64,000 bases of DNA, taken from positions 434,001 to 498,000 of the forward strand of contig JAQUGO010000001.1 of the NCBI GenBank assembly GCA_028684065.1, written 5' to 3'. Every line of letters begins with the position of its first letter. The first letter of the stretch is position 1. Of this stretch, positions 13,022-18,455 are shown piece after piece. The notes beneath the pieces were generated by a model. It was not told the origin of the DNA. It saw only the letters and a list, made by a program, of their open reading frames with translations, and ran no database searches. The DNA is from Sulfurospirillaceae bacterium. Its GTDB lineage: Bacteria; Campylobacterota; Campylobacteria; Campylobacterales; Sulfurospirillaceae. A program made the position numbers and the translations under genes.

Positions 13022-13099
13022 CATAAATCCCATTTATTAATATAGAGCATGGTAAAATATGAACTTAATAAAAGTTTTACATCAAAAGGTTTTAGTAAC

Positions 13100-15352
13100 A
13101 TGAGTGAGAGCAAAGATTTTTTACGTACCATTGTGGAAGAGGACTTACAGTCTGGAAAGTATCACGAAATTATTACTAGGTTTCCTCCAGAACCTAATGG
13201 ATTCCCGCACATTGGTCATGCTAAGTCTATCTGTATCAATTTTGGCATTGCGCGTGATTATAAAGGGCATTGTAATCTCAGAATGGATGACACCAACCCC
13301 ACAACCGAAGATATGAAATATGTTGAAGCGCTAAAAGATGCTGTGACATGGCTTGGGTTTGAATGGGCGAATCACGTACGCTTTGCCTCTGATTATTTTC
13401 CTAAAATTTACGACTATGCCGTACAACTGGTCAAAATGGGCAAAGCCTATGTGGACAGCCTCAATGAAGAAGAGATACGCGAATACCGCGGTACGATCAA
13501 AGAAGCAGGTCGTAGAAGTAAATTTGCGCAGCGTTGTATTGAAGAAAATCTTGACCTGTTAGAGCGCATGAGAAAAGGTGAGTTTAAAGATGGCGAACAC
13601 GTTTTACGTGCCAAAATTGACATGAGTGCGGCGAATATGAAAATGCGCGACCCTCTACTGTATCGTATCCGTCATGCGCATCATTTTAGAACAGGTGATG
13701 AGTGGTGCATCTACCCAATGTACGACTTTGCGCACTGTTTGTCCGACTACATCGAAGGTGTGACGCACTCTATCTGTACGTTAGAGTTTGAAAACAACCG
13801 TGAGATTTATGACTGGGTTTTAGATGAACTTGAATTAAAACTCCCTCGCCCTTACCAATATGAGTTTGCACGTCTGGGCATCAACTATACGGTCATGAGC
13901 AAACGAAAACTCTTAGAGCTTGTCAATGGCAATTATGTTCATGGCTGGGATGACCCTCGCCTTCCGACCATTGCAGGCTACAAACGAAGAGGCTACACTC
14001 CTGAATCCATCTTGAATTTTTGTGACCAAATCGGCATCGCCAAAGCAAACTCCATGGTCGATGTGGCACAGCTTGAATTTTGTATCAGAGACGATTTAAA
14101 TCAAAAAGTACCGCGTGTGATGTGTGTACTAGACCCTCTCAAAGTGACTATCGAAAATTATGCAGGAGAAGAAGTTATTGATGCTTCTTACTACCCGCAT
14201 GATGTGCCAAAAGTTGGCTCACGTAAGCTTCCTTTCTCTCGAGAAATTTATATCGAGAGAGATGATTTTATGGAAAATCCTCCACAAGATTATTACCGTC
14301 TGACACCTAAACAATCTGTACGCCTAAAACATGCGTATATTCTTACATGTAAAGAAGTTGTGAAAGATGCTAATGGCACGATAACAGAGATAAAAGCTGT
14401 ATACTATCCTGACTCCAAAAGCGGCGAAGATACCAGCGGTATTAAAACGAAAAGCGCCATTCATTGGGTCAGTGTAAACCATGCTAAAAAAGCCGAAGTC
14501 AGACTTTATGAGCGGTTATACTCTAATGAAGCACCGGATGGCTTAGAAGATTTAAACCCAAATTCATTGCATATCATCAAAAATGCCTTTGTTGAACCCG
14601 CTGTTATCACTGAAAAAACCGATGTTAGATTCCAATTTGAAAGACAAGGGTATTTTTACGCAGACCCTATTGATTACACCGCTGAATTGCCTGTCTTTAA
14701 TAAAATTGTAGGGCTTAAAGACTCTTGGGCTAAAAAGGCAGAAGTACCTGAGCCTATGCCAAAACCAGAGGCTAAAAAGCGCCCTATCGTAGAAGGTGTT
14801 GTAGCTCCTATGGGTGACGCTGAGCAGAGACTGTTTGATCAGTATACAAAAGAGTTTGGGCTTAACCATGAAATAGCGAATATTTTGGCGCGTGATGCAC
14901 AACTCTCCGATTTTTATAAAGAGACGCTCTCTTTCGCAAACAGCCCAGTAAGTCTTGCTAACATTGTGGCAAACGAAGTAGCAAGAGAACTTAAACTTGA
15001 GGCACCATTAAAATTTAGTGCCAAAGAGATAGCCGAACTTGTCACAATGATTGATGAGGAAACGATTTCCACTAAAATTGCAAAACAAGTCTTTGAAGAG
15101 ATGGTTATTTCAGGAGAGAACCCAACAGCAATTGTTGAAGCTAAAGGGCTGACACAGATTAGTGATCCTGCAAAATTAAAGCCTATCATTGATGAAGTCA
15201 TTACCAACAATCCTGATAATGTTGCAAAATATCAAGCAGGCAACACCAATCTTTTTGGCTTCTTTGTGGGACAAGTCCTCAAAAGAAGTGCTGGCAAAGC
15301 CAACCCAACCGTGGTCAATGAACTTGTGCAAGAGAAATTAAAACATGTATAG
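13100..15352 (+). CDS. glnS: Glutaminyl-tRNA synthetase with C-terminal YqeY-like domain
   Basis: This enzyme charges tRNA-Gln directly with glutamine. The catalytic core has FPPEPNGFPHIGHAKS (HIGH at 37-40) and the KMSKS-type motif VMSKRKL. Features such as CNLRMDDTNP and NSMVDVAQLE separate GlnRS from GluRS. After the beta-barrel anticodon-binding region and a proline/lysine linker, the last 175 or so residues form a GatB/YqeY-like tRNA-binding tail, as in the Deinococcus enzyme. I chose the ATG at 13100 (750 residues, MSESKDFLRT) because it aligns with the usual N-terminus and has AAAAGG ten bases upstream. An upstream ATG at 13049 is in frame but has no good ribosome site. Most Campylobacterota make Gln-tRNA through GatCAB, so the gene looks acquired. 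Confidence 0.95.
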   Translation: MSESKDFLRTIVEEDLQSGKYHEIITRFPPEPNGFPHIGHAKSICINFGIARDYKGHCNLRMDDTNPTTEDMKYVEALKDAVTWLGFEWANHVRFASDYFPKIYDYAVQLVKMGKAYVDSLNEEEIREYRGTIKEAGRRSKFAQRCIEENLDLLERMRKGEFKDGEHVLRAKIDMSAANMKMRDPLLYRIRHAHHFRTGDEWCIYPMYDFAHCLSDYIEGVTHSICTLEFENNREIYDWVLDELELKLPRPYQYEFARLGINYTVMSKRKLLELVNGNYVHGWDDPRLPTIAGYKRRGYTPESILNFCDQIGIAKANSMVDVAQLEFCIRDDLNQKVPRVMCVLDPLKVTIENYAGEEVIDASYYPHDVPKVGSRKLPFSREIYIERDDFMENPPQDYYRLTPKQSVRLKHAYILTCKEVVKDANGTITEIKAVYYPDSKSGEDTSGIKTKSAIHWVSVNHAKKAEVRLYERLYSNEAPDGLEDLNPNSLHIIKNAFVEPAVITEKTDVRFQFERQGYFYADPIDYTAELPVFNKIVGLKDSWAKKAEVPEPMPKPEAKKRPIVEGVVAPMGDAEQRLFDQYTKEFGLNHEIANILARDAQLSDFYKETLSFANSPVSLANIVANEVARELKLEAPLKFSAKEIAELVTMIDEETISTKIAKQVFEEMVISGENPTAIVEAKGLTQISDPAKLKPIIDEVITNNPDNVAKYQAGNTNLFGFFVGQVLKRSAGKANPTVVNELVQEKLKHV
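14343..14352. repeat. TTACATGTAA palindrome inside glnS
   Basis: This full copy encodes LTCK. Its presence in a gene that looks acquired suggests the motif arose or spread after arrival, or that the donor shared it. Confidence 0.7.
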
Positions 15353-16532
15353 ATTTGCCTTTTCACCTACGGACGATATGACCATCAACGACCTTAGGGT
15401 TGCGCTTTTAAATTATATCTGTGCCAAACAAGCTGGTGAACAACTTATCGTGCGCATAGAAGATGGCGATAAAGCACGCCTTATCGAAGGTAAAGACCAA
15501 GAGATGTTAGAGATGTTAGAACTCTTTGGCATCTCTTTTTCACAACTTTATTATCAAAGTAACAATTTCAAATACCATCTCCAATTTGCCTCCACGCTTT
15601 TGGACACAAAAAAAGCTTTTATCTGTTTTTGTCCCCACGAAAATGAGACGTCCCCTTGTGAAGGCACATGCGAGCATTTAAGCCCAGAAGAGGTTTTAAA
15701 TACACCAAAACCTTTTGTGATTCGTATGAAAAACCTTGAGCACACCTGTGATAACTTTACTATTATGCGCACGGACAAATATCCAACCTACACATTTGCT
15801 TGTGCTTGCGACGATATGCTTCAAGGCGTTAGTAGCGTTATTCGAGAAGAAGAGCAAAAGCAAAATGTGCCTAAAGAGGAATATATCCGAAAATCCATAG
15901 GCTATGAGCAAACGATACACTATGCGCATGTGCCTTTCATTCAAGGTCAACATGATGAAAGCATGGTTACGTGGCTTTTGAACCAAGGGTTTATGCCTGA
16001 GGCGATTGTAAACTATCTAGTCCTTTTAGGTAACCCTACGCCAACAGAAATTTTCACGATTGAAGAAGTAATTTCGTGGTTTGATATCACTAAAATTTCC
16101 AATGCTCCTATGACTTTTGACATTGATAAATTACGTTCTATTAATATTGAGCATATCAAACGTATTCCTGATATGGAACTTTCAAAACGCATCGGTTATG
16201 CATGTGAAAACATTGGAAAATTGGCCAAACTTTACACCGAAGAAGTTAGCACTACACATGAAATTAAACAAAAAGTAGATGCCATTTTTGCAAAAAAAGC
16301 GTTTTGTCCTGAGTTTGAAAATGAGAGCAAACATTTGCAAGAACTCATTTTAAGCGCGCCTTATTGTGACGAATTTGATGCTTTTGAAGCCTATTTATTA
16401 GAAAAAAGTGGCCTTAAAAATGAAGCGCTTTTAAAACCTCTTCATTTCTGGCTCACGGGCACAGATCATAGCCCTGAACTAGAACAGCTCTACCCATTTA
16501 TTAAACATTATCTTAAGGAGATTGTCAGATGA
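15345..16532 (+). CDS. GluRS (GltX1) homologue lacking HIGH and KMSKS motifs; likely pseudoenzyme
   Basis: The 395-residue frame is intact and clearly homologous to epsilonproteobacterial GltX1: MYRFAFSPTDDM, LIVRIEDGDK, KPFVIRMK, YPTYTFACACDDM and MPEAIVNYLVLLGNPTPTEIF. The catalytic signatures are gone. HIGN is replaced by TIND (13-16), the conserved RGEDH by REEEQ (167-171), and the KMSKR loop is deleted between G201 and Q202. The insertion before TCEHLS is also shortened. ATP binding and adenylate formation are therefore unlikely. Its start overlaps the glnS stop by eight bases and its own stop overlaps the next gene. In C. jejuni, as I recall, gltX1-yggT-slt is the same order, so this is the syntenic orthologue after loss of function. 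A retained tRNA-binding or structural role is possible. Confidence 0.85.
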   Translation: MYRFAFSPTDDMTINDLRVALLNYICAKQAGEQLIVRIEDGDKARLIEGKDQEMLEMLELFGISFSQLYYQSNNFKYHLQFASTLLDTKKAFICFCPHENETSPCEGTCEHLSPEEVLNTPKPFVIRMKNLEHTCDNFTIMRTDKYPTYTFACACDDMLQGVSSVIREEEQKQNVPKEEYIRKSIGYEQTIHYAHVPFIQGQHDESMVTWLLNQGFMPEAIVNYLVLLGNPTPTEIFTIEEVISWFDITKISNAPMTFDIDKLRSINIEHIKRIPDMELSKRIGYACENIGKLAKLYTEEVSTTHEIKQKVDAIFAKKAFCPEFENESKHLQELILSAPYCDEFDAFEAYLLEKSGLKNEALLKPLHFWLTGTDHSPELEQLYPFIKHYLKEIVR

Positions 16533-16825
16533 TCGTTCTTTCAACATTTATTGAAGCCTTTGCACAAATTTTACACACTATTATCAATATCTATATTTGG
16601 GTGATTATTATCGCCGCACTGATTACTTTTGTGCGACCCGATCCTTATAATCCTATCGTACAAATATTGTTTCGATTAACAAATCCAGTATATGCCTTTA
16701 TCCGCCGCTATATTCCTACTATTTTTGGAGGATTGGATATTGCGCCTATTATTGTAATTTTGAGTTTGCAATTCATTGATTTATTTGCAGTAAAATTACT
16801 TTTCACCTTAGTCAATGCGCTCTAA
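16529..16825 (+). CDS. YggT-family membrane protein
   Basis: This 98-residue protein has two hydrophobic segments (about 8-32 and 62-95) flanking the family signature FVRPDPYNPIVQILFRLTNPVY and the RRYIPTIFGGLDIAPI motif. YggT proteins are small inner-membrane proteins of unclear biochemical role, linked in different bacteria to osmotic tolerance, division or chloroplast membrane organisation. The ATG overlaps the stop of the GltX1-like gene by four bases, and its end overlaps the lytic transglycosylase start, so the three are translationally coupled. Confidence 0.88.
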   Translation: MIVLSTFIEAFAQILHTIINIYIWVIIIAALITFVRPDPYNPIVQILFRLTNPVYAFIRRYIPTIFGGLDIAPIIVILSLQFIDLFAVKLLFTLVNAL

Positions 16826-18455
16826 ATTATTTCTAGGAGGGTTGTTTGTTTTTATAACAACCCTTACCTCATTTGCCGGTGAACCTTTAAACTTTACTTT
16901 TTTCGAAGACAAACCCCAATGTCTCGCTAAAGATTTCTATATCTATTCTTACCTTGAGCAAAACACGACAACACCCGAAGAGGCAAAAGAGCTTTTTGGC
17001 ATGGTCTATATGATGAACATACGCTTTTTTAATCTCTTTGCCCAAAAAATGGATAATGAAGATTTTAAAAAAATTTCAAAATGTTTAAAGATGGATATTA
17101 CCGCTTTGCTCAAAGAAGACAAAGAGTGTTTGAGCATTGGGATAAGTATTTCTAAAGCTACCTCTTTACCCAAAAGTCAGTTAAAAATACTCGCTGAAAA
17201 AATGCGTTTCAATCCTAGTTTTTCACGACTTTTAGCTATTATGAGCCATGAGGATGTTTTTAATACCCTTTTGAACGAGGATGCACATACGTTTTTAACA
17301 CTTTTTAATGGGAGTATTACAGCCTATAAAGAAGCCAACCTTAATTTTCCTATCCCAAAAAATAAGATAAATGCCCTTTCGGAGAGTGTAAAATTTAATG
17401 CTTTTGTAAATAATGTCATCCAAAATGATAAACTCATTCCCGTACAAAAATCACTTTTACATGTCAACCCCTCTTTACATGTGAAACCAAAAGCTCTCTT
17501 CTTTCTCGGCCTGAATGCCCTAAAATACAACGATAAAAAACAAGCTATGCATTTTTTTGCACTCTCTTTTGAACGCACCACTAAGCGTGATGAAAAAGAT
17601 AAAGCACTCTTTTGGCAATACCTTGTCAGTCAAGACCAACATTATCTTCAAACGATGATGGAAAGTTACGATATCAATATATACACACTTTATGCGCACG
17701 AAGCACTCAATATTCCTGTTAAAAATATTGTATCGCCTATCCTTGAAGGCGAACACCCTACCTTTGATGTGAGCGATCCTTTTGCATGGCCTAAAGAGAT
17801 GGATAAAATTGTAAAGATGAGTCCTGATGAAATAGTAACCGAAGCGAATAGCTTTAAATATGCCAACACACTACCTCAGTACAGTTACTTGATGGAACGT
17901 GTGATGCGGTATCAAACCAATTTTTATCCCATTCCTTATGCTGAGTTTTTAAGTGACTACTCAACACAACGTAAAGCATTAATATTGGCTATAGCAAGAC
18001 AAGAAAGTCGCTTCCTTCCCTCTGTCGTTTCTACTTCTTATGCTCTTGGTATGATGCAGTTTATGCCCTTTGTAGCACGTGATATTGCCAAAAAAGAGCA
18101 TTTAGAGAATTTTACGCTAGAAGCGATGTTTAATCCTCATATTGCTTACCTATTTGCCAATATTCATCTTGATTTTTTAGAACGAAATTTAATGCATCCT
18201 GTCTTTATAGCCTATGCCTATAATGGTGGGATTGGCTTTACAAAGCGATTATTGCAAAGTGGAACATTTAAGAAAGGCCCTTATGAGCCCTTTTTGAGTA
18301 TGGAAATTATGAGTAATGAAGAGAGCCGCGAATACGGTAAAAAAGTGCTTGCTAATTATGTCGTTTATATGACGCTTTTAGGAGAAGAGGTATCAATTAA
18401 AAATCTTTTTGAAATGTTACTGATACCTTCTCAGAGCGATCATTTTCGAAACTAA
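16815..18455 (+). CDS. slt: Soluble lytic murein transglycosylase (Slt)
   Basis: This 546-residue periplasmic protein cleaves peptidoglycan glycan strands to 1,6-anhydro-muropeptides. It has a signal peptide (cleavage near residue 21), a long helical superhelix and a C-terminal lysozyme-like domain (about 380-530). The catalytic glutamate is E397 in IARQESRF, followed by the family motifs SYALGMMQFMPF and FIAYAYNGG. It sits in the same order as the C. jejuni slt gene. The last 59 bases overlap, on the opposite strand, the end of a lipoprotein gene. Confidence 0.92.
   Translation: MRSKLFLGGLFVFITTLTSFAGEPLNFTFFEDKPQCLAKDFYIYSYLEQNTTTPEEAKELFGMVYMMNIRFFNLFAQKMDNEDFKKISKCLKMDITALLKEDKECLSIGISISKATSLPKSQLKILAEKMRFNPSFSRLLAIMSHEDVFNTLLNEDAHTFLTLFNGSITAYKEANLNFPIPKNKINALSESVKFNAFVNNVIQNDKLIPVQKSLLHVNPSLHVKPKALFFLGLNALKYNDKKQAMHFFALSFERTTKRDEKDKALFWQYLVSQDQHYLQTMMESYDINIYTLYAHEALNIPVKNIVSPILEGEHPTFDVSDPFAWPKEMDKIVKMSPDEIVTEANSFKYANTLPQYSYLMERVMRYQTNFYPIPYAEFLSDYSTQRKALILAIARQESRFLPSVVSTSYALGMMQFMPFVARDIAKKEHLENFTLEAMFNPHIAYLFANIHLDFLERNLMHPVFIAYAYNGGIGFTKRLLQSGTFKKGPYEPFLSMEIMSNEESREYGKKVLANYVVYMTLLGEEVSIKNLFEMLLIPSQSDHFRN

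Follow-up and report, generated by a model that had tools for sequence, protein, structure and literature searches.

A predicted GluRS2-derived pseudoenzyme of Sulfurospirillaceae and the apparent repeated loss of GluRS2 catalysis in Campylobacterales with GlnRS

Introduction

Two classes of glutamyl-tRNA synthetase (GluRS) are described for epsilon-proteobacteria in the main-text parts of PMC3927822, GluRS1 with the motif HxGG and GluRS2 with HxGN. According to parts of PMC9976931 and PMC3927822, the GluRS2 of Helicobacter pylori charges tRNA-Gln and not tRNA-Glu. The same parts of PMC3927822 list six epsilon-proteobacteria, including Sulfurospirillum, in which glutaminyl-tRNA synthetase (GlnRS) and GluRS2 occur together, and suggest that this GlnRS is possibly non-functional. 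They hold no mention of broken GluRS2 motifs, and a literature search, mostly short of subscription papers, found no report of a dead GluRS2. Here we analyse gltX2, a GluRS2-derived gene at 15345-16532 in a 64,000-nucleotide stretch of DNA (the window) from a Sulfurospirillaceae bacterium (GCA_028684065.1, contig JAQUGO010000001.1, positions 434,001 to 498,000, forward strand).

The window gene shares the family and the locus order gltX2-yggT-slt with the GluRS2 of H. pylori and other epsilon-proteobacteria. It differs from them in that its protein is without the catalytic motifs, is acidic and occurs alongside GlnRS. Judged from sequence comparison, GluRS2 in such genomes was probably made redundant by GlnRS, lost its catalysis and was kept for a protein-binding role that it already had.

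Results

The window protein has lost its catalytic motifs

The open reading frames of the window include an uninterrupted frame of 395 aa with an ATG start at 15345-16532 on the + strand. Alignment with intact relatives confirmed what a sequence-only reading of the window had proposed, a complete frame with damaged HIGN, RIEDTD and RGEDH motifs and without the KMSKR loop:

15345..16532, + strand: dead gltX2, predicted GluRS2-derived pseudoenzyme, 395 aa (frame, family scores, motif alignment, model)
15381..15392, + strand: former HIGN, now TIND, aa 13-16 (alignment with intact relatives)
15453..15470, + strand: former RIEDTD, now RIEDGD, aa 37-42 (alignment with intact relatives)
15783..15818, + strand: PTYTFACACDDM, conserved core segment, mostly retained in dead copies (alignments)
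15843..15857, + strand: former RGEDH, now REEEQ, aa 167-171 (alignment with intact relatives)
15948..15959, + strand: site of the deleted KMSKR loop, at about aa 203/204 (exact gap position alignment-dependent)

The protein scores 249.4 bits against TIGR00464 (bacterial GluRS), below the curated cut-off of 289.95. The HIGH- and KMSKS-type signatures of active GluRS fail in it, the first at TIND and the second at the deleted loop. In Pfam, the class I Glu/Gln catalytic domain is above cut-off and the anticodon-binding domain is slightly below it (22.7 bits, cut-off 23.6); the score for the GluQ-RS family TIGR03838 is 99.5 bits, below the cut-off of 276.7. The genome carries one GlnRS, encoded by the upstream glnS, and one other GluRS besides the window gene. 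The second gltX that the sequence-only reading had proposed to look for is this other GluRS, and its motifs are normal (HIGG, RIEDTD, RGDDH and KLSKR).

Its motifs predict that the window protein does not glutamylate tRNA-Gln. The catalytic residues are gone while the frame and the selection on its amino acids persist, as expected of a pseudoenzyme. A "glutamate--tRNA ligase" annotation of such genes would mislead.

Broken GluRS2 motifs accompany GlnRS across Campylobacterales

A set of 150 genomes, at least 95% complete and evenly drawn from Campylobacterales, was searched for GluRS2; the profile used combined ten sequences of the GluRS2 lineage, both intact and dead. The search found 129 copies, all of which were fetched. 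GlnRS is present in 50 of the 150 genomes. GluRS2 was found in 39 of these 50, with stop-free frames in 39/39, and the motifs are broken in 38 of the 39 copies; the other copy (L122) is intact except for HIGD. Among the 100 genomes without GlnRS, 90 have GluRS2, and 88 of these copies are intact or conservatively changed (four motifs exact in 84, three in 3 and two in 1). The remaining two are broken (L168) and split (L132). Since the draft genome of L168 is fragmented, a GlnRS gene may have escaped detection there. L132, from genome G100 where GlnRS was not found, is split into two overlapping frames, either by a sequencing error or by a true frameshift. The association between GlnRS and a broken GluRS2 gave a Fisher p of 3e-30 with kinship ignored. 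In the 38 dead copies, RGEDH and KSKR are each retained in none, HxG in 6 and RIEDTD in 7. No motif is left in 28 copies, one is left in 7 and two in 3; in 21 copies nothing of the KMSKR loop remains.

In the comparisons of residues, neighbours and charge, "intact" refers to copies from genomes in which GlnRS was not found, minus L168 and L132, and not to the motif score. In the pair, residue, neighbour and charge comparisons the 39 dead rows include L168, and L122 and L132 were left out of dead/intact comparisons.

In the genus group of the window, here called Sulfurospirillum, the gene is free of internal stops in 22 of 24 genomes, some copies being partial. gltX2 was not found in the other two (G014 and G020), where only the other GluRS was found; G020 is 77% complete. 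GatB is present in 24/24 of these genomes and in 148 of the 150 genomes of the order, including all 11 with GlnRS and without GluRS2. The two genomes without a GatB match carry a dead GluRS2 (G146) and an intact one (G194). Because GatB is nearly everywhere, the presence of GatCAB does not discriminate. Neither GlnRS nor GluRS2 was found at the thresholds used in ten genomes (G080, G083, G085, G094, G097, G108, G119, G120, G130 and G206), which are candidates for a non-discriminating GluRS1.

A tRNA-Gln pattern matched in 106 of the 150 genomes and had no match in 44. All 40 tRNA-Gln genes fetched from the matching genomes (25 from genomes with GlnRS, 15 from genomes without) have U1-A72, and so does the tRNA-Gln of the window's own genome, so that this pair does not tell the two kinds of genome apart. 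The acceptor-stem end of the latter (L308 and L319, the same gene) is otherwise unlike the other fetched ones.

The gene tree implies separate losses

A tree was built from 78 of the 129 fetched GluRS2 copies (66 copies longer than 350 aa from six families, and 12 hand-picked) with the motif columns removed. Dead copies group with intact copies of their own families. A single ancestral death is not favoured, since the dead copies nest with intact family members in this tree. On the 78 rows, parsimony required 15 changes between dead and intact and 14 in GlnRS; the direction of the former would be from intact to dead because lost loops are unlikely to return. Among 12 independent pairs that differ in GlnRS across supported branches, death was concordant in 10.8 on average, opposite in 0 and without difference in 1.2 (sign test, p ~0.001). 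The tree thus implies that GluRS2 lost its catalysis separately about 12-15 times.

The ancestor is GluRS2 at its ancestral locus

The window protein matches a GluRS2-lineage profile (A1, in which it is itself included) with an E value of 5.9e-192, and the GluRS1 rows of other genomes match it at about 1e-80. It is 38-47% identical to intact relatives outside the genus and is nested among intact GluRS2 in a tree made without GluRS1 rows. The intact relatives at the same locus carry HxGN, and the order gltX2-yggT-slt was seen in 8/8 Helicobacter loci searched. Together with the specificity of the H. pylori enzyme, these two observations point to a tRNA-Gln-specific, misacylating GluRS2 as the ancestor. 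The sequence-only reading took the gene for an old gltX1 that had lost its chemistry and was kept. The retention at the ancestral locus stands, but the ancestor belongs to the HxGN class and is not the canonical GluRS. In Campylobacter the gene at this locus is annotated as gltX1, which would explain the name.

The neighbouring features are as follows:

13049..15352, + strand: glnS, glutaminyl-tRNA synthetase with a C-terminal YqeY domain, 767 aa (NF011291 1222 bits and TIGR00440 712 bits, both above cut-off)
16515..16522, + strand: AAGGAGAT, Shine-Dalgarno-like site of yggT within the last codons (KEIVR) of gltX2 (sequence reading)
16529..16825, + strand: yggT (PF02325, 68.7 bits)
16815..18455, + strand: slt, lytic transglycosylase-like (tblastn relatives; named after the sequence-only reading and the usual synteny)

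The window gltX2 shares 8 bp with glnS and 4 bp with yggT, in line with the close coupling to both neighbours that had been noted from the letters. In the genus loci examined, the 8-bp overlap is present in 17/19 and the 4-bp overlap in 19/19; the latter was also seen in 28 of 34 determined loci. Relatives of slt adjoin yggT in 11/11 loci searched by tblastn, 8 of them from Helicobacter. In 38 of the 39 GluRS2 copies from GlnRS-containing genomes, yggT lies within the 600 bp fetched downstream, and the remaining copy ends at a contig end; these gltX2 copies therefore sit at the ancestral locus. The proposal that a pseudoenzyme was kept at the old gltX-yggT-slt locus, in a genome whose second GluRS has normal motifs, is supported.

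By approximate gaps, glnS adjoins gltX2 or lies within about 300 bp in 18 of the 39 genomes, which span three families and two geometries. Otherwise it is 1.9 kb away in 1/39, at least 20 kb away on the same contig in 7/39 and on another contig in 13/39. In G014, of the window's genus group (L322:2440-2530), glnS is followed by yggT with no gltX2 in between, and AAGGAGAT persists directly before yggT. With one weak match (G127) counted as present, 5 of the 21 genomes that lack GluRS2 also lack yggT (G102, G103, G119, G130 and G206), versus 1 of the 129 that have GluRS2 (G134; Fisher 0.0002, kinship ignored). This linked absence may mean that the neighbours were deleted together or that they are functionally connected.

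The fold persists and the charge shifts

An AlphaFold model made from 42 aligned sequences had a predicted local distance difference test score (pLDDT) of 90.6 and a predicted template modelling score (pTM) of 0.87. Compared with Thermus GluRS (1j09), it gave Z 31.6 over 392 residues at a root-mean-square deviation of 3.0, which predicts a GluRS fold including the anticodon-binding domain. Confidence is low near one putative site (10-residue blocks of 60-73):

15624..15671, + strand: CFC ... CEGTC, putative zinc site, Cys94, 96, 105 and 109 (alignment; zinc by analogy)

At 15657-15671 the window protein, like several of its close relatives, has Cys in place of the usual Tyr of this site, which could make a four-cysteine site.

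Residues were counted over the 39 dead rows in the numbering of reference L012. R3 is retained in 38, Cys94, Cys96 and Cys121 in 36 each, D188 in 37 and D189 in 38. G255, P258 and Glu/Asp39 are retained in all 39, and N263 and Y264 in 38. The residues lost are those for ATP handling and several basic ones. The net charge of dead copies is -15.4 and the isoelectric point (pI) 5.24 (36 of the 39 rows, three short copies being left out), versus -3.7 and pI 6.54 for intact copies of the same families (29 rows) and -1.1 and pI 6.95 elsewhere (59 rows). Of 14 lineage comparisons, hand-picked from the tree with one intact row (L133) serving twice, 13 showed the dead copy to be the more acidic; the exception is L118. 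K400 in the anticodon-binding domain, a lysine in 99% of intact rows, has become acidic (E or D) in 28 of the 36 dead rows, and K398 and K388 are frequently E in dead copies. We take these three positions to face the tRNA.

Dead copies are under relaxed purifying selection

The ratio of nonsynonymous to synonymous change (omega) was 0.162 in 19 Sulfurospirillum copies; four further groups of dead copies gave 0.128, 0.128, 0.201 and 0.193. Three intact groups gave 0.035-0.076, the C-terminal part of GlnRS 0.097 and yggT 0.021. Because the group trees are long, synonymous change (dS) is partly saturated in these values; ten hand-picked Sulfurospirillum pairs with dS of 0.06-1.12 gave omega 0.10-0.20. 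One dead pair from elsewhere had omega 0.09 at saturated dS, and L059 and L060 differ by two changes only. Within the protein, omega was lowest at aa 55-102 (0.105) and aa 262-306 (0.086). Selection on dead copies is relaxed yet far from neutral. An omega near 1 together with frameshifts, named by the sequence-only reading as the sign of plain decay, was not found. Plain decay is rejected within Sulfurospirillum by the ten chosen pairs and the stop-free frames.

Discussion

The redundancy pattern, the motif loss, the selection and the charge shift are observed directly in the genomes, and they suggest that the dead GluRS2 is a repeatedly evolved pseudoenzyme rather than a product of plain decay. 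GlnRS acquisition is the likely cause of the catalytic loss. A horizontally acquired GlnRS would have taken over the charging of tRNA-Gln and made the chemistry of GluRS2 redundant, and a GluRS2 still charging or holding tRNA-Gln would have competed with it. Loss of ATP handling (RGEDH, KMSKR and mostly HIGN) would have come next. The positive charge of the anticodon-binding domain would also have been lost, probably to stop the protein from misacylating or holding tRNA-Gln. Purifying selection would then have preserved the protein, its fold and its putative zinc site. The retained role would most likely be non-catalytic and protein-binding (scaffold or regulatory), and already present in active GluRS2 because the loss would have occurred about 12-15 times separately. 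Candidate partners are the tRNA-Gln/amidotransferase machinery or the yggT-slt products. We propose tentatively, at somewhat less than even odds, that GluRS2 across Campylobacterales, including the active Helicobacter copies, serves a further purpose that is non-catalytic and independent of tRNA charging, exposed by the repeated removal of catalysis and of basic residues in the anticodon-binding domain.

Several observations weigh against this explanation. GluRS2 was not found by the profile search in 11 of 50 genomes with GlnRS, among which is a genome of the window's genus; the kept role is therefore dispensable. The comparison with 10 of 100 genomes without GlnRS was not significant (Fisher 0.08). 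Two of the 11 (G075 and G117) had no GluRS of either kind above threshold, so their assemblies may have gaps. The anticodon-binding domain is lost in three copies, two from the genus (G011 and G015) and one from the family (G099). Dead copies exceed intact ones in omega by a factor of about 2-4, and three close dead pairs outside Sulfurospirillum gave 0.26-0.33. The separate losses were counted on a tree of GluRS2 itself rather than on an independent species tree. A departure comes from a second, similarity-biased set of 44 genomes, partly overlapping the first, behind loci similar to the window protein, with Helicobacter and the window's genus excluded. GlnRS was read there from frame length and PF00749 match range in 25 genomes (3 with fragments only, L023, L041 and L053). 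With L057 and L062 (partial) dropped from the motif count, the 24 readable copies beside GlnRS had all four motifs in 7, three in 1 and two or fewer in 16; the 18 readable copies without GlnRS had four in 15, three in 1 and two in 2. The seven four-motif copies are L016, L019, L028, L035, L039, L048 and L049, four of them from genomes titled Sulfurovum, and L029 has three motifs. We infer that intact copies beside GlnRS mark recent GlnRS gains, possibly early stages of conversion. The L041 genome (G052:C28) shows GlnRS only in two pieces, frames of 248 and 233 aa that share a contig; the gene may be disrupted, or the assembly wrong.

Other roles were weighed against the same data. The protein might still bind tRNA-Gln via the acceptor stem and act on it, for instance in trans-editing by hydrolysis of Glu-tRNA-Gln or as a tRNA chaperone. 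According to parts of PMC9976931, the GluRS2 of H. pylori recognises tRNA-Gln by the U1-A72 pair of its acceptor stem. That pair is present in all 40 fetched tRNA-Gln genes and in the own genome, and Arg3 (38/39) and Glu/Asp39 (39/39) are retained. The H. pylori enzyme also reportedly hydrolyses excess Glu-tRNA-Gln. Against tRNA binding stand the strong acidic shift, the reversal of K400 in 28/36, and the low retention of Y181 (16/39) and R199 (19/39), which we take from Thermus GluRS to form part of the glutamate pocket. We consider this role unlikely. The earlier suggestion that the protein may bind tRNA is weakened likewise by the acidic shift and the reversed basic residues of the anticodon domain; other basic residues (K335, K350, K358 and K427) are conserved in dead copies, so that some nucleic acid binding is possible, which also counts against the proposed loss of it.

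A slowly decaying relic, whose frame is held only by translational coupling to yggT, would fit the 4-bp overlap in 28/34 loci, the Shine-Dalgarno-like site that persists even where gltX2 is missing, and the raised omega. The site would explain the conserved gltX2 tail, present also in two truncated copies, but not the remaining protein. Such a relic leaves unexplained the omega of 0.1-0.2, the retained cysteines and core residues and the 39 stop-free frames, and in L322 yggT directly follows glnS without gltX2; we doubt it about as much as tRNA binding. That GluRS2 became a subunit or regulator of GlnRS is suggested by the nearby glnS in 18/39 genomes, with its three families and two geometries. 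The motifs are lost as well where glnS is at least 20 kb away on the same contig (7/39), and GluRS2 was not found in 11 GlnRS-containing genomes, which makes this quite improbable. For an unrecognised ligase chemistry on another substrate there is the precedent of GluQ-RS, a GluRS-like protein with a changed substrate (parts of PMC9437257), but the RGEDH and KMSKR signature is gone in 38/38 copies and the loop wholly deleted in 21, and this is hardly credible. A protein-binding role remains the one we prefer.

These results argue against GlnRS being the non-functional partner, as suggested in PMC3927822. Synthetase-like proteins without synthetase activity are already known, and the GluRS2 case is unusual in its many separate origins. 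Since the same event, loss of enzyme chemistry after gene transfer with retention of the protein, would have been repeated in nature about a dozen times, the retained residues could be inferred statistically, and a second function of GluRS2 is predicted. HisZ is a bacterial HisRS-like protein without adenylation activity that serves as a regulatory subunit of HisG (parts of PMC9437257). Like the dead GluRS2, it is a synthetase-like protein kept without that activity; it differs in deriving from another synthetase and in having a known partner, and the GluRS2 conversion recurs many times. GluQ-RS (YadB) is also GluRS-like, and its lack of an anticodon domain resembles the three truncated dead copies. 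In contrast to the window protein, which falls below the TIGR03838 cut-off, it is an active ligase.

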